Source: Nitrospirota bacterium | GTDB taxonomy: Bacteria > Nitrospirota > Nitrospiria > Nitrospirales > Nitrospiraceae | Assembly (NCBI GenBank): GCA_030645475.1 | Contig: JAUSMA010000069.1 | Location: 124,001-188,000, forward strand | DNA: 64,000 nt | Direction of reading: 5' to 3' | In this document: piece by piece, positions 31,404 through 44,165 of the stretch | How the letters are laid out: every line of letters starts with the position of its first letter | Numbering within the stretch: position 1 is the stretch's first letter | The notes under the pieces: model-generated | Seen by the model: the letters and a program-made list of their open reading frames with translations, nothing else | Database searches by the model: none | Told to the model about the DNA's origin: nothing | Program-made: the position numbers and the translations under genes

Positions 31404-31840
31404 TCAGAGCCTGCGATCCGTTTCTCTCCTTTCCAGTACAGCCTCATTGCCCCTCATGCGGAAAAGATCCTTCGGGGTCCGCACCGCTCTTCAGCCTCTC
31501 GCCCTTTGGCTTCAGATGGCCCGGACCCATTTGCATCTAGACTTTTTACGGCCTTCCATAGGACACTGGCACCCTCCGAAACGACTGTGCAGAACCAACT
31601 GAATAGGGTGAACGCCATGCGGTTCTTGCAACCCGATCCGCACGCGACAGAGATGCTGCCATTGTGGCATTCAGCCGTTTCCCGTAGATCTTCACGTCGC
31701 CAGCATCGGGACTTTCTTCCGAGCCTATTCGATTCCGGCCCTTCTCATCCTATCCAAGGGATCGCGCCTCCTCGATTTCGCCATCTTCAGCTACACCCAG
31801 CCGTTTCACGTCGCCATTGCCTGAGGCAAGGAGTCGCACT
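31404..31840 (+). other. 437-base spacer before the giant kinase gene
   Basis: No supported gene. One frame (about 31609-31824) is open and gives a plausible-looking C-terminus (SYTQPFHVAIA), but it has no start codon after the preceding stop, so it is either chance or a decayed fragment. No clear promoter or terminator was found. The kinase ribosome site GCAAGGAG is at 31826-31833. Confidence 0.4.
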
Positions 31841-34800
31841 ATGAGCAGTACCGGTCCACTGTCAGAAGTCGAATCTCTGCGATTGCAGGTGGTAGCGCTC
31901 ACGCGCACCCTCGCCGAGCGAGACCAGGCACTACAGGACGGGCCCGAACAGGCCAACCTCTTGCGAGCCATCGTCGAAGGGACGTCGGCCGACATCGGAG
32001 TGGAATTCTTCCGGTCGCTCGTCAAGCATCTCACCCAAACCCTCAATGTCCGTTACGCCTTTGTCGGCGAGTGGCGGGAGCAGATTCCAGGTAAGGTGAG
32101 CACTCTAGCGGTCTGGTCGGGAACGGATTTCGCCGATCCGTTTGACTATGACCTCAAGGGCTCACCCTGCGAGCATGTGATCGGACAACGATTGTGTCTG
32201 CACGAGTCGGGCGTGCAGGAGCGTTTCCCCGACGATCATCTCCTCGTTCAATTGGGAGTTCAGAGCTATTGTGGAATGCCGTTGTTCGACCGATCGGGAA
32301 CTGCACTGGGCCTCCTCGTCGTCATGGATGATCGCCCCTTTACGCGCATCCCCCTCATCAAGGATCTGTTGCAAGTTTTCGCGATGAGAGCGGCAGCAGA
32401 ACTGCAGCGCCAACGAGCCGAGACCACTCTGTGCGAACAGGGGCGGCGACTATGCTTTACGCAATTTTCGCTGGATCATGCCGCGGATGCCGTCCTCTGG
32501 GCCGACGACTCAACGAAGTTCATCTATGCGAATGAAGCCGCCTGCCAGTCGTTGGGGTACACGAACGAGGAATTACTCACCCTGAGTATTCCGGATATCG
32601 CTCCCCACCACGATCCTGTTCAATTCCACAAACGGCTCGATCAGCTGAAGCGGGGCCCCGCTGTCACCTATGAATCGGTGCACCGGCGCAAAGACGGCAC
32701 CGAATTTCCCATCGAGGTCTCAGTCACCTACCTGGAACACGACGGACGAGGCTATACCTGCGGCATCGTTCGGAATATCACGGAGCGCAAGCAGATAGAG
32801 CAAGAACGTCTGCAGGCATTGCACGATCTCCAGAATATCATGGAGACCGTTCCTGATTTCATGTTCACCCTCGATCTCCAAGGCAACATGGTGAAATGGA
32901 ATCGCCGGGTCGAGGAGGTCACGGGATATAGCTCGAAGGAGTTGCTGAATATGTCGGCTCTGGCCTTTGTGCCTCCGGAGGCAGCAGCCCGTACCGCCGC
33001 CGCCATTCACCGGGCCTTCACGGAGGGATACGCCGAACTTGATGGAGAGCTCCTGACGAAAGATCGCCGCCTCATTCCCTATCATTGGACCGGCGCCCTA
33101 CTCAAAAATCTTCAGGGCGAACCCATCGGTATCACTGGAATTGGACGAGATGTGACGGAGAAGAAACGGTCGGAAGCCGCACTCCAACAGGAACGGCAAC
33201 ATCTTGTCGAAGCCCAGGCGCTTGCCCATCTGGGGAGCTGGGATTGGGATATCGACAGTGGGGACGTGCAAGGTTCAGATGAGCAATTCAGAATCTTTGG
33301 CCACGAGCCAGGACGTTTTGCAGTCAAGTTCGATATGTTCTTAGCCTCGCTGCACCCCGACGATCACGATCGTGTCTTAGCCGCCATCAACGACGCGCTC
33401 CTGGGAACGCACCCCTACGACCTCGAATATCGCATCGTCCGTCCTAACGGCGAAGTCCGGTCCATCCATGCCCGCGGGGATGTCCATCGAGATGAGACCG
33501 GGCACCCGATCAGGATGGCCGGGACCGTCCTCGACATTACCGAACGGAAACAGGTTGAACGGGCTCTCCACGCCAGCGAAGAACGGTGGCACCTGGCTGT
33601 GCAAGGGAGTAATGACGGCATCTGGGATTGGAACATCCAAACAGGCGCCGTCTTCTTTTCCCCGCGATGGAAAGCCATGCGCGGGTTCGAGGACCATGAA
33701 ATTTCAAACCATCTCGATGAGTGGCGAAGCCGTATTCATCCCGACGATCTCGACCGAGTGCTTCAGGGCGTTGACGCCTACTTGGCCAAAGAGGCTCCAG
33801 AGTTTTCGGAGGAATATCGAATCCAAAGAAAAGACGGATCCTACATGTGGATCTTGGATCGGGGCGTGGCCCTCTGGACCGACGATGGAACACCCTGTCG
33901 AATGACAGGTTCGGAGTCTGACATTAGCGAGCGCAAACAAGCCTTGTTGCTTTTGGCGCAACAGGAATCACTCCTTCGCTCGATTCTCGAGGCTGAACCG
34001 GAATGCGTCAAGCGCGTGGCTGCGGACGGCACGCTCTTGCAGATGAACGGGGCCGGGCTCTGTTTCATCGAGACCGAGTTCTTAGAACAAGTAGTGGGTC
34101 GATCGGTATACGATCTCGTCGCCCCTGAATTTCTGGACCAATTCCGCAGTATGCACGAGGCCGTGGTCCTGGGAGCACCGCAGCAACTTGAGTTTCAGAT
34201 CATCGGGCTGAAGGGCACGCGACGGTGGATGGAAACACATGCGGTGCCGTTGTGGAATCCGATCGATCACCGCGTGGAGCATTTGGCGATCACTCGCGAC
34301 ATCACCGAGCGCAAGCGGGCGGAAGAATCGATCCGCCAGAATCGGACGCTGCTTCAATCGTTCGTCGAGCATACCCCCGCAGCGGTCGCCATGCTGGACA
34401 GAGACCTTCAATACGTCGCGGTGAGCAAGCGATGGTATCAGGATTACCGGCTGGCCGAACGCGACATCATCGGTCTCCACCACTATGACGTATTTCCGGA
34501 AATCCGAAAGATGGAACAATGGCAGGCCATCCATCGCCGGTGTTTGGCGGGCGAGACCCTGCGAAATGAGGAAGATCGGATTTGCCGGAAAGATGGGAGA
34601 GAAGACTGGCTTCGCTGGGAAATTCGTCCCTGGATTGATGAATCCGGCATGGTCGGTGGAATTATCATGTTCACCGAAGTCATTACCGCGCGCAAACAGG
34701 CCGAGCAGGCGTTAGCAGAAAAGACCCGTGAATTGTCGGATTTCGTTGAGCACGCCACCGTCTCCATGCATTGGGTGGGGCCAGACGGGGTGATCCTCTG

Positions 34801-37800
34801 GGCGAACCAGACAGAACTGAATCTCCTCGGCTATAGCCGTGAGGAGTACATCGGACGCCATATTGCTGACTTTCACGTAGACAAGTCGGTCATCCAGAAC
34901 ATTCTCGACCGCCTCAGCCATGACGAGCCGGTCCAGGAATATGCCGCCCGCCTTCGGAGCAAGGACGGCTCGATCAAGGACGTCATTATCGATTCGAGCG
35001 TCCTCTGGAAGGAGGGCAAATTCACGCATACCCGTTGTTTTACCCGTGACGTGACAGAGCGCAAAGAGGCGGAGGAAGCGCAACGGATCAGCGAGGAGCG
35101 CTTTCGTGCCGCATACCACAACGCCTCTGTCGGCATTTCCATCTGCGATCTGACGGGGCGATTGCAGGAAGTCAATCAGGCACTATGCGAGATGCTCGGC
35201 TACCCCAAGGAGGAGTTGCTCGCCACAGATTTTCAGGCGCTCACACATCCCGACGATCTGGCAAGCAATCTCAACCGAATTCGCATGCTACTGGCGGGAA
35301 CTGCCGTGCATCAGGTATTCGACAAGCGCTATATCAAGAAGGATGGGACCACGGTCTGGGCTCACATGGGCCTCTCGGTCATACGAAATCATAACGGCGA
35401 ACCATCTCATTTGCTGGCCATGGTCCACGACATCACTGAGCGCAAGCAGGCGGAGAGCAGGTTACGCCTCACGCAATTCACGATCGAGCACGCCGCAGAC
35501 GCAGTCTACTGGATTGATCAAACGGCCCAGATTGTGAATGTTAACGAGGCGGCCAGTCTGATGTTGGGCTACTCAAAAGACGAGTTATGCGCGATGACGG
35601 TCCACGACTTGAATTCTGATTTCCAATCTGACATGTGGCCAGGTTTTTGGGCAGAAACCAGGCAACGCAAGAGCGTGACCTTTGAGACTTTTCATCGCTC
35701 CAAGACGGGCCAGCTCATCCCCGTCGAGGTGAGTGTCAATTATCTCTCCTACGAAGGGCAGGAGCTGCATTGCGCCTTCGTGCGAAATATCACGGACCGG
35801 AAAAATGCCCAGGAAGAGCTCCGCCGCTCCAAGTCCCAATTGACCCATATCCTCGAAAATAGTCCAGTCGTGGTCTATGCGCGCCAGGTCGGAGACGGCT
35901 GGCCCATCACCTTCATCACCCCGAATGCCTACGGGCTGCTCGGCTACACCAGCGTGGATCTTCTCAGCGACCCCCATCGACTGGATAGCTTGATACACCC
36001 GGACGATGAGCGCGATTTGCTGGCAAGAGGAATGTCTCAACTGCTGCGCGCCGGCGCATGTACCTTTGTCTATCGTTTGCGCCACCGAGATGGCATCCAT
36101 CGCTGGATCGAAAACCGGGCGAGACTGAACGACAACGGAAAAGGCGCTCTGCAGATTGCCGGAACGATGATCGACGTCACGGAGCGGAAGAAGGCAGAAG
36201 AAGCGCTGGAGGAGGAACGGCATCGGTTAGTCATGGCTCAACTGCTCGCACACCTCGGCAGTTGGGAATGGAACATCCTGACCGGAACCAAGACGTGGTC
36301 CGATGAGAGCTACAGAATCTTCGGGTATGACCCCGGAAGCATTCAACCGACCTACGAGATCTTTGCGCAGGCCATACACCCTCAGGACCGGGAGCGAGTG
36401 CTTCAAGCTGCCCGTGCCACGCTGGAAGATGATATGGCCTCGTGTGATCTTGAATGCCGGATCGTCCGGCCCAGCGGAGAAGTCCGCCACATCCACTGCC
36501 GTGGTGAAGTGACACGCAATGACGCGGGACGGCCATTGCAGATGGCAGGAACGGTGCTCGACATTACGGAACGGAAGCAAACGCAAGAGGCCCTGGCTCA
36601 GCATGAACGCCAGTTACAGACCGTCCTTGATGCGCTTCCTGTGGGTGTCTGGTTTACCGATCCATCTGGCAAACCGCTTCTTGCCAATCCCGCAGCCAAG
36701 CACATTTGGTCTGGCATCAAACAGGTCGGGATCGAGACGGCCGCCAATGCCGCCGGATGGTGGGAGGCCATCGGACCATCGAGCGAACCCCATCGCTGGG
36801 CCTTGAGTCATGTCCTCACGAAAGGGGTTCCCTCACTGTACGAAACGCTCGATTTCGAATGCCTCGATGGGACGAAAAAGACCATCCGCAACACGGCCGT
36901 TCCGGTCCAGGACGAGACTGGTGTCGTCGTCGGTGCGATCGTGCTCAATGAAGATATTACGGCGTTACGGCGGGCGCAGGAAGCCATTAAACTGACGCAG
37001 TTCTCCATCGACCATGCCGTCGAGGCATTTCTATGGATTGGTCCAGACGCCAAAATTTTGCACGTGAACGAGGCGGCCTGCCGCATGCTGGAATATGCCA
37101 GTGCCGAACTGACGGCCATGACGGTGCACGACATTGATCCGAATTTTCCTCAGGAACAGTGGTCGGCCCATTGGGAAGAATTGAAACGAAAGGGTTCCCT
37201 GACGTTTGAATCGAAACATTGGTCGAGGACCGGCCGCGTTCTGGACACGGAGGTCACTGTCAATTATTTGCAATACGACGGTCGAGAGTACAACTGCGCC
37301 ATCATGCGGGATATTGGAGAGCGCAAGCGGGCTGACGAGGCGCTGCGAACTAGTGAAGAACGGTATCGAGCGCTGTACGACGAGACCCCGACGATGTACT
37401 TCACTCTGGCGACGGATGGGACCGTGCGCTCCGTCAACCGGTTCGGAGCGGATCAGCTTGGCTATCAGGTGGAGGAGTTAGTTGGGCATTCTGTGCTCAG
37501 GATCTTTCACGAAGACGACAAAGAAGCCGTGAGTACCAGCCTTTCGGAATGTCTCGCGACACCGGAGACGACGAAACATTGGGAGTTTCGGAAAGTGCGA
37601 AAAGACGGGCGCATCATTTGGGTCAGGGAAACGGCCCGGGTGGGGCAGTCATCTGCCGGAGAGATCGTTTTGTTGGTGACATGCGAGGATACCACCGCGC
37701 AGAAACTGGCCGAAGCTCAGCAGGCCAGGCAAGACGACCAATTACAAGCCATCTTCCGGATGACGCTGACCCTGTCCCGCGCGACCTCGCTTGACGACAT

Positions 37801-40009
37801 CTATCGTGAGGCCATCGATTGTATGCAGCGGGCGCTCAAGGCGGACCGCGCTTCCATCCGCTTGTTCGACGAAGCAGGCGTGATGCGGTTCAAGGCCTCC
37901 CGGGGTCTGTCGGAGCGGTACCAGTCCGCCGTAGAAGGTCATTCCCTTTGGACCAGCAAGACGGTCGATCCCCAAACAATTCTGATAGATGACATCAGTT
38001 CGGACCCCTCTGTCGCTCAATATCGAGAGGTCTTCGACGCAGAAGGTATCAAGGCTCTCGGATTCATCCCCCTCGTCTTGCCAGAAAGACTGCTGGGCAA
38101 GTTCATGCTCTATTACGATACACCTCATCATTTTACTGAAGAAGAAGTCGGCGTCGCGAAAACGATCGCCGGCCATGTGGCCTATATGATTCAACGTACC
38201 CGTGCGGACCAGGCATTACGCGTGAGTGAAGAGCGGTACCGGTCCTTAGTCGACAATGCGCCGATCGGCATCTTTGTCAACGAGGCGGGACGGTTTACCT
38301 ATGTCAATCGAGAGATGCAACGCATTCTTCGTGCGACGCATGCCGATCAGCTGATCGGTATGCCGGTCTTGGACCGGATCGCCCCGGAGTTTCATCAGAT
38401 CGTGCAGGCTCGCATCCAGCAGTTGATTGAGAAGGGACAGCCGGCTCCCACCTTAGATAAGCAATATGTGGGGCTCGATGGGTCACGGGTCGACGTGGCG
38501 GTCACAGCGATTCCCACCATCTTCAACGGTACCCCTGTGATGCAGGTGCTGGTGCTCGATATTACGGAGCGCAAACAGGCGGAAGAGGCGCTGCGGGAGA
38601 AACATACCCTGCTCTCGACCATCATGGATGCCACGGTGGATATCATTTTCGTGAAAGACCTGCAGGGGCGCTATTTGCACATGAATCCCGCCGGAGCCCG
38701 CGCCGTGGGGATGTCGGTCGAGGAGGTCGTCGGGAAAGACGACGACGCGATTTGGCCGGCCGACCTGGCCGCCTGCTGTCAAGAAGCTGATCGGAAGATC
38801 CTGGCTTCCGGTGCCGCCCAGACGATGGAGGAAAGCACGACGGTCGATGGACAGCGCGTCACGTATTTGACGACCAAAGCGCCATATCGCGATGCTGCAG
38901 GACGCATGATCGGCATCATCGGCGTGGCCCATGACATCTCGCAGATGAAACGATCGGAAGAAGAGCTTCGGCGGTCACATGCGTTTCTCCGGCAAGTCAT
39001 CGACATCGATCCCAATTTCGTGTTTGCTAAGGACCGTGCCGGCCGTTTTACCTTAGTCAACAAGGCGGTGGCCGATGCCTACGGGACGACGGTGGAGAAC
39101 TTGATTGGAAAGACCGATGCCGACTTTAATGCCGACCAGAAAGAAGTCGCATTTTCCCGCGAGACGGACTTGGAGGTGCTGAATTCGCTTCAGGATCTCT
39201 TCCTCCCCGAAGAGGTCATCACCGATTCGATGGGCAAGATGCGATGGTTGCAGACGGTGAAGCGGCCTCTTTTCAACGAACAAGGCCAGGCTATCATGGT
39301 CCTCGGGGCTGCGACGGATATCACTGAACGCAAGCGTATGGAAGAAGCTCTCCGTCAACGGGAGCGTGACCTGCGCGCCGCGATCGAGGAGCGCGAACGG
39401 ATCAGCCAAGACCTTCATGACGGTATCTTGCAGTCGCTGTTTGCGGTGGGCCTCTCGCTTGAAACGACCAAATCGATGATGTCCCTCAAAGAGCGCAAGA
39501 CGTCGGGCCCGGCACTTAAGCAGGCCATCGATCAATTAAACCGTCTCATGCACGAGGTCAGAAATTTCATTGCGGGGCTCGGATCGGATCTCCTCCAGGG
39601 AACGGACCTTCCGACAGCGCTGCACCACATGCTTGAAACCTTAACGAAGAATCACCCCACGCATGTGCGCCTCAAGATCGAGGATCGTGCCGCGCAGGCC
39701 CTCTCCGCCGAACAGTCGTTACACCTGCTTCTCGTCATTCAAGAAGCGGTGAGCAATTGCATCCGGCACGGCCATGCGCAAGAGGCCACGGTGTCGCTCA
39801 AGTTGCTGAAACAGGGGGTCCGTTTGAGCGTGCGCGACAACGGCTGCGGATTTGACTCAGCCGCCTCCAAGGGGATCGGACATGGATTGGCCAACATGGC
39901 CGCCCGTGCGCAGAAGATCGGAGGGCGATTTACCGTCTTGTCAAAAACGAATGAGGGAACACGTGTCGTGCTCGACCTACCGAAGGAGGCCGTCCTTGCC
40001 CACAGTTAA
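31841..40009 (+). CDS. Giant soluble multi-PAS/GAF sensor histidine kinase (NarL/DesK class)
   Basis: 2722 residues, no membrane segment. An N-terminal GAF domain (about 25-190) is followed by 14 PAS/PAC units of about 125 residues, whose PAC ends are DITERK-type motifs near residues 317, 442, 569, 699, 824, 952, 1074, 1200, 1322, 1449, 1577, 1709, 1827 and 1954. A second GAF lies at about 1970-2125, then three more PAS units (ends about 2244, 2369, 2497). The kinase is HisKA_3 type: the phosphoacceptor is His2526 in ISQDLHDGILQSLF, with HATPase motifs IQEAVSNCIRHGHA, VRDNGCGFD and GHGLANMAARA. The ATG at 31841 has GCAAGGAG. The response regulator gene overlaps its end by 14 bases. Several PAS units are near-duplicates of others. 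Confidence 0.95.
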   Translation: MSSTGPLSEVESLRLQVVALTRTLAERDQALQDGPEQANLLRAIVEGTSADIGVEFFRSLVKHLTQTLNVRYAFVGEWREQIPGKVSTLAVWSGTDFADPFDYDLKGSPCEHVIGQRLCLHESGVQERFPDDHLLVQLGVQSYCGMPLFDRSGTALGLLVVMDDRPFTRIPLIKDLLQVFAMRAAAELQRQRAETTLCEQGRRLCFTQFSLDHAADAVLWADDSTKFIYANEAACQSLGYTNEELLTLSIPDIAPHHDPVQFHKRLDQLKRGPAVTYESVHRRKDGTEFPIEVSVTYLEHDGRGYTCGIVRNITERKQIEQERLQALHDLQNIMETVPDFMFTLDLQGNMVKWNRRVEEVTGYSSKELLNMSALAFVPPEAAARTAAAIHRAFTEGYAELDGELLTKDRRLIPYHWTGALLKNLQGEPIGITGIGRDVTEKKRSEAALQQERQHLVEAQALAHLGSWDWDIDSGDVQGSDEQFRIFGHEPGRFAVKFDMFLASLHPDDHDRVLAAINDALLGTHPYDLEYRIVRPNGEVRSIHARGDVHRDETGHPIRMAGTVLDITERKQVERALHASEERWHLAVQGSNDGIWDWNIQTGAVFFSPRWKAMRGFEDHEISNHLDEWRSRIHPDDLDRVLQGVDAYLAKEAPEFSEEYRIQRKDGSYMWILDRGVALWTDDGTPCRMTGSESDISERKQALLLLAQQESLLRSILEAEPECVKRVAADGTLLQMNGAGLCFIETEFLEQVVGRSVYDLVAPEFLDQFRSMHEAVVLGAPQQLEFQIIGLKGTRRWMETHAVPLWNPIDHRVEHLAITRDITERKRAEESIRQNRTLLQSFVEHTPAAVAMLDRDLQYVAVSKRWYQDYRLAERDIIGLHHYDVFPEIRKMEQWQAIHRRCLAGETLRNEEDRICRKDGREDWLRWEIRPWIDESGMVGGIIMFTEVITARKQAEQALAEKTRELSDFVEHATVSMHWVGPDGVILWANQTELNLLGYSREEYIGRHIADFHVDKSVIQNILDRLSHDEPVQEYAARLRSKDGSIKDVIIDSSVLWKEGKFTHTRCFTRDVTERKEAEEAQRISEERFRAAYHNASVGISICDLTGRLQEVNQALCEMLGYPKEELLATDFQALTHPDDLASNLNRIRMLLAGTAVHQVFDKRYIKKDGTTVWAHMGLSVIRNHNGEPSHLLAMVHDITERKQAESRLRLTQFTIEHAADAVYWIDQTAQIVNVNEAASLMLGYSKDELCAMTVHDLNSDFQSDMWPGFWAETRQRKSVTFETFHRSKTGQLIPVEVSVNYLSYEGQELHCAFVRNITDRKNAQEELRRSKSQLTHILENSPVVVYARQVGDGWPITFITPNAYGLLGYTSVDLLSDPHRLDSLIHPDDERDLLARGMSQLLRAGACTFVYRLRHRDGIHRWIENRARLNDNGKGALQIAGTMIDVTERKKAEEALEEERHRLVMAQLLAHLGSWEWNILTGTKTWSDESYRIFGYDPGSIQPTYEIFAQAIHPQDRERVLQAARATLEDDMASCDLECRIVRPSGEVRHIHCRGEVTRNDAGRPLQMAGTVLDITERKQTQEALAQHERQLQTVLDALPVGVWFTDPSGKPLLANPAAKHIWSGIKQVGIETAANAAGWWEAIGPSSEPHRWALSHVLTKGVPSLYETLDFECLDGTKKTIRNTAVPVQDETGVVVGAIVLNEDITALRRAQEAIKLTQFSIDHAVEAFLWIGPDAKILHVNEAACRMLEYASAELTAMTVHDIDPNFPQEQWSAHWEELKRKGSLTFESKHWSRTGRVLDTEVTVNYLQYDGREYNCAIMRDIGERKRADEALRTSEERYRALYDETPTMYFTLATDGTVRSVNRFGADQLGYQVEELVGHSVLRIFHEDDKEAVSTSLSECLATPETTKHWEFRKVRKDGRIIWVRETARVGQSSAGEIVLLVTCEDTTAQKLAEAQQARQDDQLQAIFRMTLTLSRATSLDDIYREAIDCMQRALKADRASIRLFDEAGVMRFKASRGLSERYQSAVEGHSLWTSKTVDPQTILIDDISSDPSVAQYREVFDAEGIKALGFIPLVLPERLLGKFMLYYDTPHHFTEEEVGVAKTIAGHVAYMIQRTRADQALRVSEERYRSLVDNAPIGIFVNEAGRFTYVNREMQRILRATHADQLIGMPVLDRIAPEFHQIVQARIQQLIEKGQPAPTLDKQYVGLDGSRVDVAVTAIPTIFNGTPVMQVLVLDITERKQAEEALREKHTLLSTIMDATVDIIFVKDLQGRYLHMNPAGARAVGMSVEEVVGKDDDAIWPADLAACCQEADRKILASGAAQTMEESTTVDGQRVTYLTTKAPYRDAAGRMIGIIGVAHDISQMKRSEEELRRSHAFLRQVIDIDPNFVFAKDRAGRFTLVNKAVADAYGTTVENLIGKTDADFNADQKEVAFSRETDLEVLNSLQDLFLPEEVITDSMGKMRWLQTVKRPLFNEQGQAIMVLGAATDITERKRMEEALRQRERDLRAAIEERERISQDLHDGILQSLFAVGLSLETTKSMMSLKERKTSGPALKQAIDQLNRLMHEVRNFIAGLGSDLLQGTDLPTALHHMLETLTKNHPTHVRLKIEDRAAQALSAEQSLHLLLVIQEAVSNCIRHGHAQEATVSLKLLKQGVRLSVRDNGCGFDSAASKGIGHGLANMAARAQKIGGRFTVLSKTNEGTRVVLDLPKEAVLAHS

Positions 40010-40652
40010 GGCCAAGCCGATTCGCCTGCTCCTGGTCGACGATCACGAGGTTGTCCGTGTCGGCCTGCGAACCGTCCTGCACAACAATCACGGCATTATC
40101 GTTGTCGGCGAGGCAGGCACCAAAGCTGCCGCGGTCCGGACGGTGAAGCGATTGAGACCGGACATCGTTTTGATGGACGTGCGACTTCCCGATGGATCCG
40201 GCGTCGACGCCTGCCGGGCGATTCTCGCCAGCTATCCGACAACACGCATCATCTTTCTCACGTCCTATGCGGACGAGGAGTCCGTGCTGGCGGCGGTATT
40301 GGCTGGCGCACAGGGATACGTGCTCAAGGACATCGACTCCAGCTTGTTGGTTCGATCGATTCGTACCGTGTTCAGCGGACAATCGATTCTTAATCCAACA
40401 CTGACCCAACGGGCACTGAATTGGATTAAGGCCTGGCCCGAGCAGAATGGCCCGGCCCAGGGGCAATCTCTTTCTCCTCAAGAAGAGCGCGTGCTGGCAT
40501 TGGTGGCGGAAGGATTGACCAACAAGGAAATCGCCACCACGATGCAACTCAGCGACAAGACGGTGAAGAACTATCTCGCCAACATGTTCCAAAAACTCCA
40601 TATCTCACGGCGCGCCCAAGCTGCCACCTTCTTCGTCAAGCGTCAGGCCTGA
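39996..40652 (+). CDS. LuxR/NarL-family response regulator
   Basis: 218 residues. The receiver domain has the acidic pocket RLLLVDDHEVVRVGL, the phosphoacceptor Asp in IVLMDVRLPDGSG, the Thr/Ser position IIFLTSYA and the Lys in GYVLKDIDSS. A LuxR helix-turn-helix ends it (LSPQEERVLALVAEGLTNKE, IATTMQLSDKTVKNYLANMF). The start is a TTG at 39996, chosen because AAGGAGG lies six bases upstream and the receiver begins soon after. It overlaps the kinase gene by 14 bases, so the pair are translationally coupled and should form one two-component system. Target genes are not visible. Confidence 0.94.
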   Translation: MPTVKAKPIRLLLVDDHEVVRVGLRTVLHNNHGIIVVGEAGTKAAAVRTVKRLRPDIVLMDVRLPDGSGVDACRAILASYPTTRIIFLTSYADEESVLAAVLAGAQGYVLKDIDSSLLVRSIRTVFSGQSILNPTLTQRALNWIKAWPEQNGPAQGQSLSPQEERVLALVAEGLTNKEIATTMQLSDKTVKNYLANMFQKLHISRRAQAATFFVKRQA

Positions 40653-41294: not shown

Positions 41295-41783
41295 ATGGTC
41301 ACGACATGGTGGAGCCCTCAATTCAATGCCCTGCTGGGTAGTCTTGTCGTGGCAGCGGGTGCCTGGTTGGCGTGGGACTCGTTCTCACTCTGGGGAATCC
41401 TTCTCGTCGCAGGAGGCGTCGCAGGGTTTCTGGTCTGGCAAGGGCGGACAATTGGGCTGGTTTGGGCCTGGACCACCCTATTGATTGGCTTGGAGAGCCT
41501 AGCCTGGCCCATCGTCACGATGGTTCAGGTCCGGTCGGTCACGACCGAGCCGACCGACGATCAGATGGGAACGATCCTCTCGGCTGGGCTGACAGGCCTC
41601 TTTTCGGCAATCTTTTGGATCACCTTTTCCTATGGGCTGTTCAAGCGAATCGGTCAACCCCTCGTCGTCTCATCACCCGATGTACCCATCAGCGATTCAG
41701 CTGTGTTGCACGTAGAGCCGCCTCAGCAGAACAAGATCGCACCTAGCTCATCTCGATCGGATCGACGTCGACGTCGAACTTGA
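41295..41783 (+). CDS. Small integral membrane protein, 162 aa
   Basis: Four hydrophobic segments are visible (NALLGSLVVAAGAWLAWDSF, WGILLVAGGVAGFLVW, TIGLVWAWTTLLIGLESLAW, GTILSAGLTGLFSAIFWITF). A polar tail ending in a run of arginines follows (SSRSDRRRRRT). I do not recognise the family. The last 41 bases overlap the 3' end of the convergent priA gene, so the Arg-rich tail is constrained by priA coding. A TTGACA lies at 41231, but no matching -10 element is obvious. Confidence 0.7.
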   Translation: MVTTWWSPQFNALLGSLVVAAGAWLAWDSFSLWGILLVAGGVAGFLVWQGRTIGLVWAWTTLLIGLESLAWPIVTMVQVRSVTTEPTDDQMGTILSAGLTGLFSAIFWITFSYGLFKRIGQPLVVSSPDVPISDSAVLHVEPPQQNKIAPSSSRSDRRRRRT

Positions 41784-44067
41784 TCGCCCGTCGCTGATAC
41801 GTCCGCTCCAGTTCCTTGACCGTGGTCCGTACCGCGTCGAGTCCCACTTCCCGTTCCAGCGATTTCACAAGTATTTGCCATCGATACCGTCCACGGAGTT
41901 TCGCCACCGCAGAGGGAACTGGCCCCAGCACTGTGAGACGGTCTGGACGGCTAATCGGTTGAGCTTCTGAGGGGGCCTTGGCCGCGGTTGTCAGTTTCAC
42001 TAAGGAGGGTGACGCGCAGGCGGTGAGTCGGGTCACCCATGTTGTGGCCGCGTCGCGCACCATGCTCTCATCGGTTCCCGATACGAGGAGGGCAATGAGA
42101 TGCACGGCCGGCGGATATCCCAATGCAGTCCGATGGGACAGCTCCTCCGATACAAACACGGGTTCGTCATTCTGGACCACAGCCTGAATTGCATGATGAG
42201 AGGAGAGGGCGGTCTGTACAATAACCTGGCCGCCGGCCTCGGCCGAGGCGGCGAGGCTGACCGCATCGAGGAGTGTATGGTAGGTGCGCTCGGCGGATCG
42301 GAAATCCGGCACACTGAGTCCTGCGTCTGCCTGCACAATTCCCACGAGGCCCATGGTTGGGAGAGGTCCGCGCCGGAGCAGCAATTGTGTTCCGACGATA
42401 ATATCCCATTCTCCTTGTTGGACCCTCCGCCACAGGGTCTCGGCTTGAGCCGGTTTTTTCATGGTATCTCCGTCGAGCCGAAGCACGGTCGCGCGGGGAA
42501 ATAGTCGTTTCGCATCCTCTTCCACCCGTTCCGTGCCCTCCCCGATCGACTGCATACGAGGGCCGGAACAGGTGCCGCAGGTTTCGGGGATGGGTGCTAC
42601 GGCTCCGCAGTAGGAGCAGTGAAGGCGGCCTGCCTGCCGGGAATACATTAGTGCGACACGACAGGTAGGACAGCGGGGAACCTGGCCGCAGTCACGACAG
42701 ACGAGGGCGCCGGCATAACCCTTCCGGTTCAGAAATAGTAGAACGCCGGCTTTGCGACCGATGGTCTGCTCGATCGCTCGAATGAGCGGCTGGCTCAGCA
42801 CTGTGCCGTATCCGTGATTGCGTAAATCAACGATCTGTACGTTCGGTCTCGCATCAGGCGGTAGAAGCTTGCGAATCGCGATGCCGCGTTGTTCCACTGC
42901 TGCTCTGGTCTCAAGGCTGGGATGGGCAGAGCTCAGGACCAATAAGGCCTGCTCAGTCTGTGCTCTCAGCCAGGCCACGTCCCGTGCATGATAATGTGGC
43001 TCCTGTTCCTCTTTAAATGCCGCATCCTCTTCTCCCTCGACCCAGATCGCTCCGATGGCGGTCAATGGGAGAAAGATGGCTGAACGGGTTCCCACGATGA
43101 CTCGAGCGACCTTCCGCTGAATCTGGTCCCACAGCGCGGCTTTGGCTTGGTCTGAAAGACCACTATGGACACAGATCGGGGAGATTCCCTTCCCGTCATC
43201 ACGAATCAAGCTTGTAATCCATTGGGCCCGTTCTGCTTCGCCCACAAGGATGAGGACCGTCTGTCCGCGGTCGACTACGAGGCGAACGGTTTGCTGCAGT
43301 AAGCTTGATCGATCGGCCCAGGGCGCCTGGACCAGAACCCGAGAAGATTCTTGGCTTTTCAGCGCTTGCAACAGCGGCGCGGCCCAAGGCATGACCTGGT
43401 CAGGGAGCAGTGGCCTGGTGATGGTAAAAGAGGGTTGCCCTGCCTGCAGGGAAAGCTTGGTGAGAGGTGCCGCCGAAGCAGATGGCAGACCTTGGCTCTT
43501 CACCACCCATCCGCGAGCCGTGAAATCTTCTAAGAGATCAGCCGTCACAGGATTGCGGGACGGCCGCCGAAGTGCGAAGGGTTGTTTCCCCAACTTCGTG
43601 AGCAATGCCCGTGCCTTTGCCGAGCAGGGTTCGCGGGCCACACGAGCAGCCTTCCCTCGCTCAGTTAGTTCGTAGTAGCTGATTTTCGCTTGGGGTTTGG
43701 GCGCCGGTGGCAGCACCAATCTCAGGCATTGTCCCCATGGCGCGACATATCGTTCGGCTACCTGCCGCGAGAGTTCAAATAGGTTCGAGGATACATCTGT
43801 TGCTGCTCCCGCCGGGAGCAACGAGTGAATGTCCTTGAGGCGTGACTGATCGAGATTATAGGGCAGAACAGGGAAGAGGGCGATCACCGCCCCTTGGAGG
43901 GTCGAGTGTCCGAAGGGTACAAGTACGAGATGCCCAACGCGCAATGTAGGACGGAGTGATAATGGCACGCGGTAGGTGAACGGACCAGCCAGATGCCGAG
44001 GCACAATAACATCTGCGAAAATGGCCTCAGGCCCTATGGGTGCAGGGGGTGCCTCTGTTGAAATCAT
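41743..44067 (-). CDS. priA: Primosomal protein N' (PriA) with degenerate helicase motifs
   Basis: 774 residues. The N-terminal DNA-binding domain (AIFADVIVPRHLAGPFTYRV) and the zinc-binding region (CRDCGQVPRCPTC, HCSYCGAVAP, CGTCSG) are intact and identify PriA. The helicase core is not intact. Walker A, normally GVTGSGKTEVY, reads QAPWADRSSLLQ. The DEEH box reads EGEED. GSATP reads SSAHP. GTQML-KGHDFP reads GTQLLLRRGPLP. The arginine-finger motif QVAGRAGR reads DAVSLAAS. ATP hydrolysis is therefore unlikely, and the protein may act only as a structural restart factor. The start at 44067 is predicted to be leaderless; a GTG at 44085 is possible. Confidence 0.93.
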   Translation of the reverse strand: MISTEAPPAPIGPEAIFADVIVPRHLAGPFTYRVPLSLRPTLRVGHLVLVPFGHSTLQGAVIALFPVLPYNLDQSRLKDIHSLLPAGAATDVSSNLFELSRQVAERYVAPWGQCLRLVLPPAPKPQAKISYYELTERGKAARVAREPCSAKARALLTKLGKQPFALRRPSRNPVTADLLEDFTARGWVVKSQGLPSASAAPLTKLSLQAGQPSFTITRPLLPDQVMPWAAPLLQALKSQESSRVLVQAPWADRSSLLQQTVRLVVDRGQTVLILVGEAERAQWITSLIRDDGKGISPICVHSGLSDQAKAALWDQIQRKVARVIVGTRSAIFLPLTAIGAIWVEGEEDAAFKEEQEPHYHARDVAWLRAQTEQALLVLSSAHPSLETRAAVEQRGIAIRKLLPPDARPNVQIVDLRNHGYGTVLSQPLIRAIEQTIGRKAGVLLFLNRKGYAGALVCRDCGQVPRCPTCRVALMYSRQAGRLHCSYCGAVAPIPETCGTCSGPRMQSIGEGTERVEEDAKRLFPRATVLRLDGDTMKKPAQAETLWRRVQQGEWDIIVGTQLLLRRGPLPTMGLVGIVQADAGLSVPDFRSAERTYHTLLDAVSLAASAEAGGQVIVQTALSSHHAIQAVVQNDEPVFVSEELSHRTALGYPPAVHLIALLVSGTDESMVRDAATTWVTRLTACASPSLVKLTTAAKAPSEAQPISRPDRLTVLGPVPSAVAKLRGRYRWQILVKSLEREVGLDAVRTTVKELERTYQRRAIKFDVDVDPIEMS

Positions 44068-44072
44068 GCGGC

Positions 44073-44102
44073 ATTGTAGCAGCACAGGAAAAGTGGGAAC
44101 AA
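44073..44102 (-). promoter_or_regulatory. Predicted promoter giving a leaderless priA mRNA
   Basis: On the minus strand, TTGTTC and TACAAT (as TGCTACAAT, an extended -10) are separated by 18 bases. Five bases lie between the -10 element and the ATG at 44067. No Shine-Dalgarno sequence is present. Confidence 0.55.
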
Positions 44103-44133
44103 CGAGAGAGACGGCAAGGTGGGGGGGATGCAG

Positions 44134-44165
44134 GAGAGGGTTGACGATTTAACGTCAACCCTCTC
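44134..44165. terminator. Perfect 13-bp hairpin between the OmpA-domain gene and priA
   Basis: GAGAGGGTTGACG, six bases, CGTCAACCCTCTC. It lies just after the stop of the minus-strand OmpA-domain gene. No T run follows on the minus strand, so it may be a terminator of weak type or an operator for priA, whose promoter is 30 bases away. Confidence 0.55.

Follow-up and report, generated by a model that had tools for sequence, protein, structure and literature searches.

The only PriA of a Nitrospira genome is a probable pseudohelicase, and the PriA motor appears to have been lost at least twice in Nitrospirota

The window encodes a full-length PriA

The window, i.e. the whole stretch of 64,000 nucleotides that was analysed, carries on its reverse strand an open reading frame, priA, which extends from position 41743 to 44085. 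It codes for 780 residues if translation starts at the GTG at 44085, or for 774 residues if it starts at the ATG at 44067, the end given in the initial annotation. The 3' end of priA overlaps by 41 bases (41743-41783) that of a convergent frame for a small membrane protein (41295-41783, forward strand). An inverted repeat, gagagggttgacg ... cgtcaaccctctc (44127-44165), separates priA from the OmpA-like gene upstream and is possibly a terminator, judging by its letters. On the forward strand, a single frame of 2730 residues (31817-40009) looks like a sensor histidine kinase containing a very long series of PAS-type repeats, and a LuxR-type response regulator (39852-40652) comes after it.

The frame at 41743-44085 is a full-length PriA. 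Its match to TIGR00595 reaches 392.1 bits, above the curated cut-off of 230.35, and the 3'-DNA-binding domain (3'BD), the eight-cysteine zinc region and the C-terminal domain (CTD) are present in order. The protein is similar to the PriAs of E. coli and Klebsiella whose structures have been solved (6dcr, 4nl4, 8fak), with which it shares the domain order, the fold, the eight zinc cysteines, the 3'BD and the CTD. Among the Pfam profiles, those of the 3'BD and the CTD were matched and the Zn-ribbon came slightly below its cut-off; DEAD and ResIII had no match in the protein, and Helicase_C gave a sub-threshold match only.

The DNA-binding and zinc-binding regions had been described as kept, and this is what we observed. 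The 3'BD (residues 25-126; 43708-44013, reverse strand, like all the features below) is matched by PF17764 at 8.9e-19, and the CTD (residues 655-780; 41746-42123) by PF18074 at 2.4e-15, with 7 of 8 strongly conserved columns retained. In the cysteine-rich zinc region (CRR; 42568-42699) all eight cysteines are present, at positions 463, 466, 472, 475, 490, 493, 503 and 506, and the eight are invariant in 144 Nitrospirota PriAs. Residues 127-235 (43381-43707) form a linker with a helix-strand pattern in the structural model, probably a winged-helix region. One residue of the 3' pocket, D17 of E. coli PriA, is replaced by Thr, so recognition of the 3' end may differ; most motif-bearing PriAs of Nitrospirota also have Thr or His there.

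The helicase motifs are eroded in lobes predicted to keep their fold

Alignment with canonical PriA bears out the earlier reading that Walker A, the DEEH box, GSATP, the GTQML segment and QVAGRAGR are all altered. In lobe 1 (residues 236-430; 42796-43380), former motif I, or Walker A (43297-43335, LVQAPWADRSSLL), has LVQAPWADRSSL at residues 251-262 instead of LLHGVTGSGKTEV, the P-loop GVTGSGKT being replaced by QAPWADR. Former motif II, or Walker B (43024-43041), is VEGEED (residues 349-354) for VDEEHD; DEEH has thus become EGEE, and only its second Glu survives. Former motif III (42910-42936) is LSSAHPSLE (residues 384-392) for LGSATPSLE, i.e. SSAHP instead of GSATP. Former motif V (42358-42396; residues 564-576) is VGTQLLLRRGPLP instead of VGTQMIAKGHDFP, where GTQM..KG has turned into GTQLLLRR: GTQ is kept and KGHD is lost. 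Finally, the arginine finger of former motif VI (42211-42267) is DAVSLAASAEAGGQVIVQT as against QVAGRAGRGxxxGxVxxQT, with DAVSLAASAEAGG instead of QVAGRAGRGxxxG; GRAGR is replaced by SLAAS and the arginines of QVAGRAGR are gone. Unlike the E. coli and Klebsiella enzymes, the Nitrospira protein therefore lacks the P-loop, the Walker B Asp, motif III and the arginine finger, and erosion extends to all that is expected of an active SF2 (3'-5') helicase, from Walker A and Walker B to motif III and the arginines of motif VI.

We then considered the AlphaFold model (mean pLDDT 83, pTM 0.83). At the expected site of the P-loop, a two-residue turn, A254-P255, joins the first strand to the next helix. 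With VIA-align, the model superimposes on E. coli PriA 6dcr over 619 residues (Z 31.6, 3.5 A). The next-best family is Mfd, with about 340 residues aligned, mainly in the helicase lobes, and all the matches found beyond PriA by VIA-align and Foldseek are other SF2 helicases aligned on the two lobes. Both lobes are thus predicted to retain the PriA fold despite the lost ATP site.

Since both lobes are predicted to be folded, and the protein has retained GTQ and one Glu of the DEEH box, ATP might still be bound or hydrolysed through a rebuilt site. This appears barely conceivable: virtually every member of the motor-less groups described below has lost the Lys and Thr of the P-loop, the Thr of motif III and the two Arg of GRxGR, the Walker B Asp is usually missing too, and lesser changes already abolish the ATPase of Deinococcus radiodurans PriA, for which the replacement of GKT by GRT together with a weak Walker B is enough (PMC4504706).

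The motor-less PriA is the only copy and is under purifying selection

An intact second priA would make the protein described here a paralogue. In the genome of the window (3.75 Mb, 99.92% complete, 71 contigs), one PriA match exceeds the cut-off. Weaker matches, in frames of 673-1167 residues, cover one end of the profile only and resemble other SF2 helicases. The single-record chromosomes of three relatives, among them the finished one of N. moscoviensis, also have one PriA each, in the motor-less form. A second copy is hence excluded as far as an assembly of this completeness allows, and the finished relatives agree. As expected for a PriA pseudohelicase, this orthologue of PriA, in which motifs I and II are degenerate, is the only one in its genome.

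The loss is shared by relatives. Among PriAs of the same genus, taken from 24 genomes, it was seen in every one that could be read (one row, L032, ends before the P-loop), and in the wider family and order in 27 of 27. Named records with the loss include MAGs labelled Nitrospira lenta and N. defluvii NOB1 as well as the complete genome of N. moscoviensis NSP M-1. At 80 named loci we found no P-loop at the Walker A position, no GRxGR finger, no GSATP and no DEEH; the single loose pattern match, in N. moscoviensis, falls in the C-terminal region.

Eroded motifs could also be those of a decaying gene with no function left, on its way to being lost. The linker does evolve fast, and a related genome of 2.0 Mb (G137, same family, 99% complete) has no PriA detectable by the profile or by the window protein, which may reflect an assembly gap or a complete loss in a small genome. 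(The lack of a full PriA match in four other genomes, G195, G250, G068 and G228, is possibly due to assembly gaps.) However, the frames are open, without stops, in sampled relatives across the order, and dN/dS, determined for 12 related pairs of the window's genus, is 0.24 overall, with one pair (L013/L032) inflated by the misframed L032. By part it amounts to 0.14 for the 3'BD, 0.15 for the CRR, 0.13 for HD2, 0.22 for HD1, 0.27 for the CTD and 0.50 for the linker; hence, it does not exceed about 0.2 in the dead lobes either, which shows that selection still acts on them. In addition, 50 residues, including the eight Cys, are nearly invariant across PriAs with and without the motifs. These data largely refute decay, which we regard as very improbable.

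Loss of the motor appears to be vertical and to have occurred at least twice

An alignment of PriA from across Nitrospirota had been suggested at the outset. Our survey covered 215 genomes of the phylum, from which 143 distinct PriAs could be read fully or nearly so, and it revealed two states, motif-bearing and motor-less. GSGKT is kept in all 42 PriAs of families f5-8, 10, 11, 13-15, 17-21, 23, 32, 34, 36 and 37. It is found in none of the 59 PriAs of a first motor-less group, made up of the window's order (f1-f4) and family f9 of the same class, nor in any of the 42 PriAs of a second one (f16, f22, f24-31, f33, f35, f38), which is presumably Thermodesulfovibrionia. The loss in the 59 proteins and the conservation of GSGKT in 42/42 PriAs of motif-bearing families exclude chance and sequencing error.

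All five motif groups are gone from 59/59 and 42/42 proteins of the two motor-less groups, except for DEEH in four proteins of family f4 (L009-L012). These have an intact DEEH box but neither P-loop nor motif VI, which suggests that the motifs were lost stepwise. Near the second group, one protein of family f37 (L126, genome G219) has kept the P-loop and DEEQ, and its motif VI is eroded (AEKVGTGE); from its sequence, this is possibly a further, partial loss.

The initial annotation had proposed a separate loss in this lineage, and two observations bear it out: sister families in the window's class have a canonical PriA, and the trees need two losses within the phylum. In an RpoB tree, built without one misframed row (G066) and two other poor rows, the motor-less state requires two changes, and a single motor-less clade is rejected (log-likelihood 462 lower, AU p 2e-94). 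Family f9 likely shares the loss of the order, with a branch support that is not firm (93/78). In the PriA tree, each motor-less group is a clade of its own with full support. Taken together, the two trees suggest that the loss is vertical and occurred at least two times.

Alternatively, a single loss could have been followed by horizontal transfer of the dead gene between the two clades, as might be suggested by the Ala-Pro present in the P-loop replacement of members of both groups. We consider this quite improbable: the other replacement sequences differ between the groups, the PriA tree places the first group among motif-bearing proteins, those of the same class among them, and a topology that unites the two groups is rejected (AU p 0.004), even though long-branch attraction would tend to produce it.

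Candidate partners and other helicases

The presence of a PriC- or DnaT-like partner had also been raised. By HMM search, neither PriC (0/43 genomes) nor DnaT (0/43) was found; since both are absent, neither is the partner, and in this the Nitrospira genome differs from E. coli. DciA, in turn, was detected in 42 of 43 genomes. We examined whether it could be the cause of motor loss and rejected this idea, as DciA occurs in motif-bearing and motor-less lineages alike and so does not explain the loss. As for a DnaC-type loader, the DnaC/IstB profile gave only weak matches in the window's genome, the best one in a frame of 458 residues, a DnaA-like length. It was also discarded as a correlate, the IstB profile finding mainly IS21-like copies and matches of DnaA length across genomes. 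UvrD-type helicases are present in all 14 genomes checked.

PriA pseudohelicases of other bacteria

Helicase-dead PriA had been said to be recorded for actinobacteria; the paper that we found goes no further than describing a putative PriA of smaller size and strong divergence (PMC1193525). Compared with that description, the Nitrospira protein is likewise divergent and its lineage also has DciA, but it exceeds E. coli PriA in length and scores above the TIGR00595 cut-off. The published experimental precedent for a pseudohelicase PriA is that of D. radiodurans. It lacks both ATPase and helicase activity, yet its affinity for forks is nearly normal, and there is evidence that it interacts with DnaB (PMC4504706). 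Like it, the Nitrospira PriA is a full-length protein with a degenerate ATP site and conserved DNA-binding parts, its losses being confined to the motor (Lopper et al. 2015, PMC4504706). The two differ in several respects. In Deinococcus-Thermus the motif I loop is still recognisable, with K changed to R, whereas Nitrospira has lost the entire P-loop and motif III along with much of motif V and the arginines of motif VI; in Nitrospirota the loss took place twice within one phylum; and inactivity was measured in D. radiodurans, whereas the Nitrospira PriA is known here through its sequence and model. Our literature search returned no paper on Nitrospira PriA and no biochemistry for any Nitrospirota PriA. 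As far as the literature found goes, PriA pseudohelicases were thus already known from Deinococcus-Thermus, and the new elements are the lineage concerned, how deeply the motifs are eroded and the fact that the loss is replicated within one phylum.

A proposed role as a fork platform

Most probably, the sole PriA of this cell is a pseudohelicase acting as a passive platform at forks that recruits DnaB, probably with DciA. We infer that, with its ATP site lost, it would neither bind nor hydrolyse ATP, and therefore would not unwind the nascent lagging strand. It would bind abandoned forks and D-loops whose lagging arm is single-stranded, hold the lagging strand and serve as a scaffold for recruiting the replicative helicase. 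DciA would probably take part in this, since a DnaC-type loader, PriC and DnaT were not found; this link of DnaB and DciA to the Nitrospira PriA is proposed from the presence of the genes. Duplex lagging arms would first be cleared by another 3'-5' helicase (UvrD/PcrA-type) or by a nuclease.

PriA of the E. coli preprimosome surrounds the lagging strand and carries PriB on its CRR and DnaT on its HD2 and CTD; its helicase activity serves forks with a duplex lagging arm (PMC13377028). E. coli tolerates an ATPase-dead PriA. The parts retained in Nitrospira, i.e. the 3'BD, CRR, HD2 and CTD, are the scaffold parts of E. coli PriA. The idea of PriA as a scaffold only, already put forward in the initial annotation, fits this conservation pattern, the purifying selection and the published precedent. 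Given that the motor was also lost, independently, in another branch of the phylum, the fork-recognising scaffold seems to be the part that matters.

Re-purposing of the protein, for example as a structural binder of forks or R-loops, with restart ensured by another pathway, would agree with the lack of the classical partners PriC and DnaT and with the conserved replacement residues that HD1 of the window's motor-less group has acquired. It is nevertheless unlikely, given that the regions kept are those through which E. coli PriA binds forks, PriB and DnaT (PMC10175261, PMC13377028), that this is the only PriA in the genome and that no alternative restart protein was found. We therefore favour the recruiting platform. 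More tentatively, and with some doubt on our part, bacteria whose DnaB is loaded with no DnaC-type ATPase might repeatedly have lost the PriA motor, the Nitrospirota PriA being a passive clamp that hands DnaB/DciA directly to the lagging strand; if true, this would be a restart pathway without any ATPase acting ahead of DnaB itself.

Most bacteria retain the helicase activity of PriA although E. coli can survive its loss, a puzzle for which Nitrospirota offers a replicated natural experiment: two clades have a motor-free protein as sole PriA, with purifying selection measured in the window's genus, and their relatives have retained the motor. Fork recognition and recruitment are thereby set apart, as the indispensable part, from a dispensable motor, and matched proteins with and without it are available for biochemistry. 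In Nitrospira, an ecologically central group, the genes annotated as 'replication restart helicase' probably do not encode helicases.
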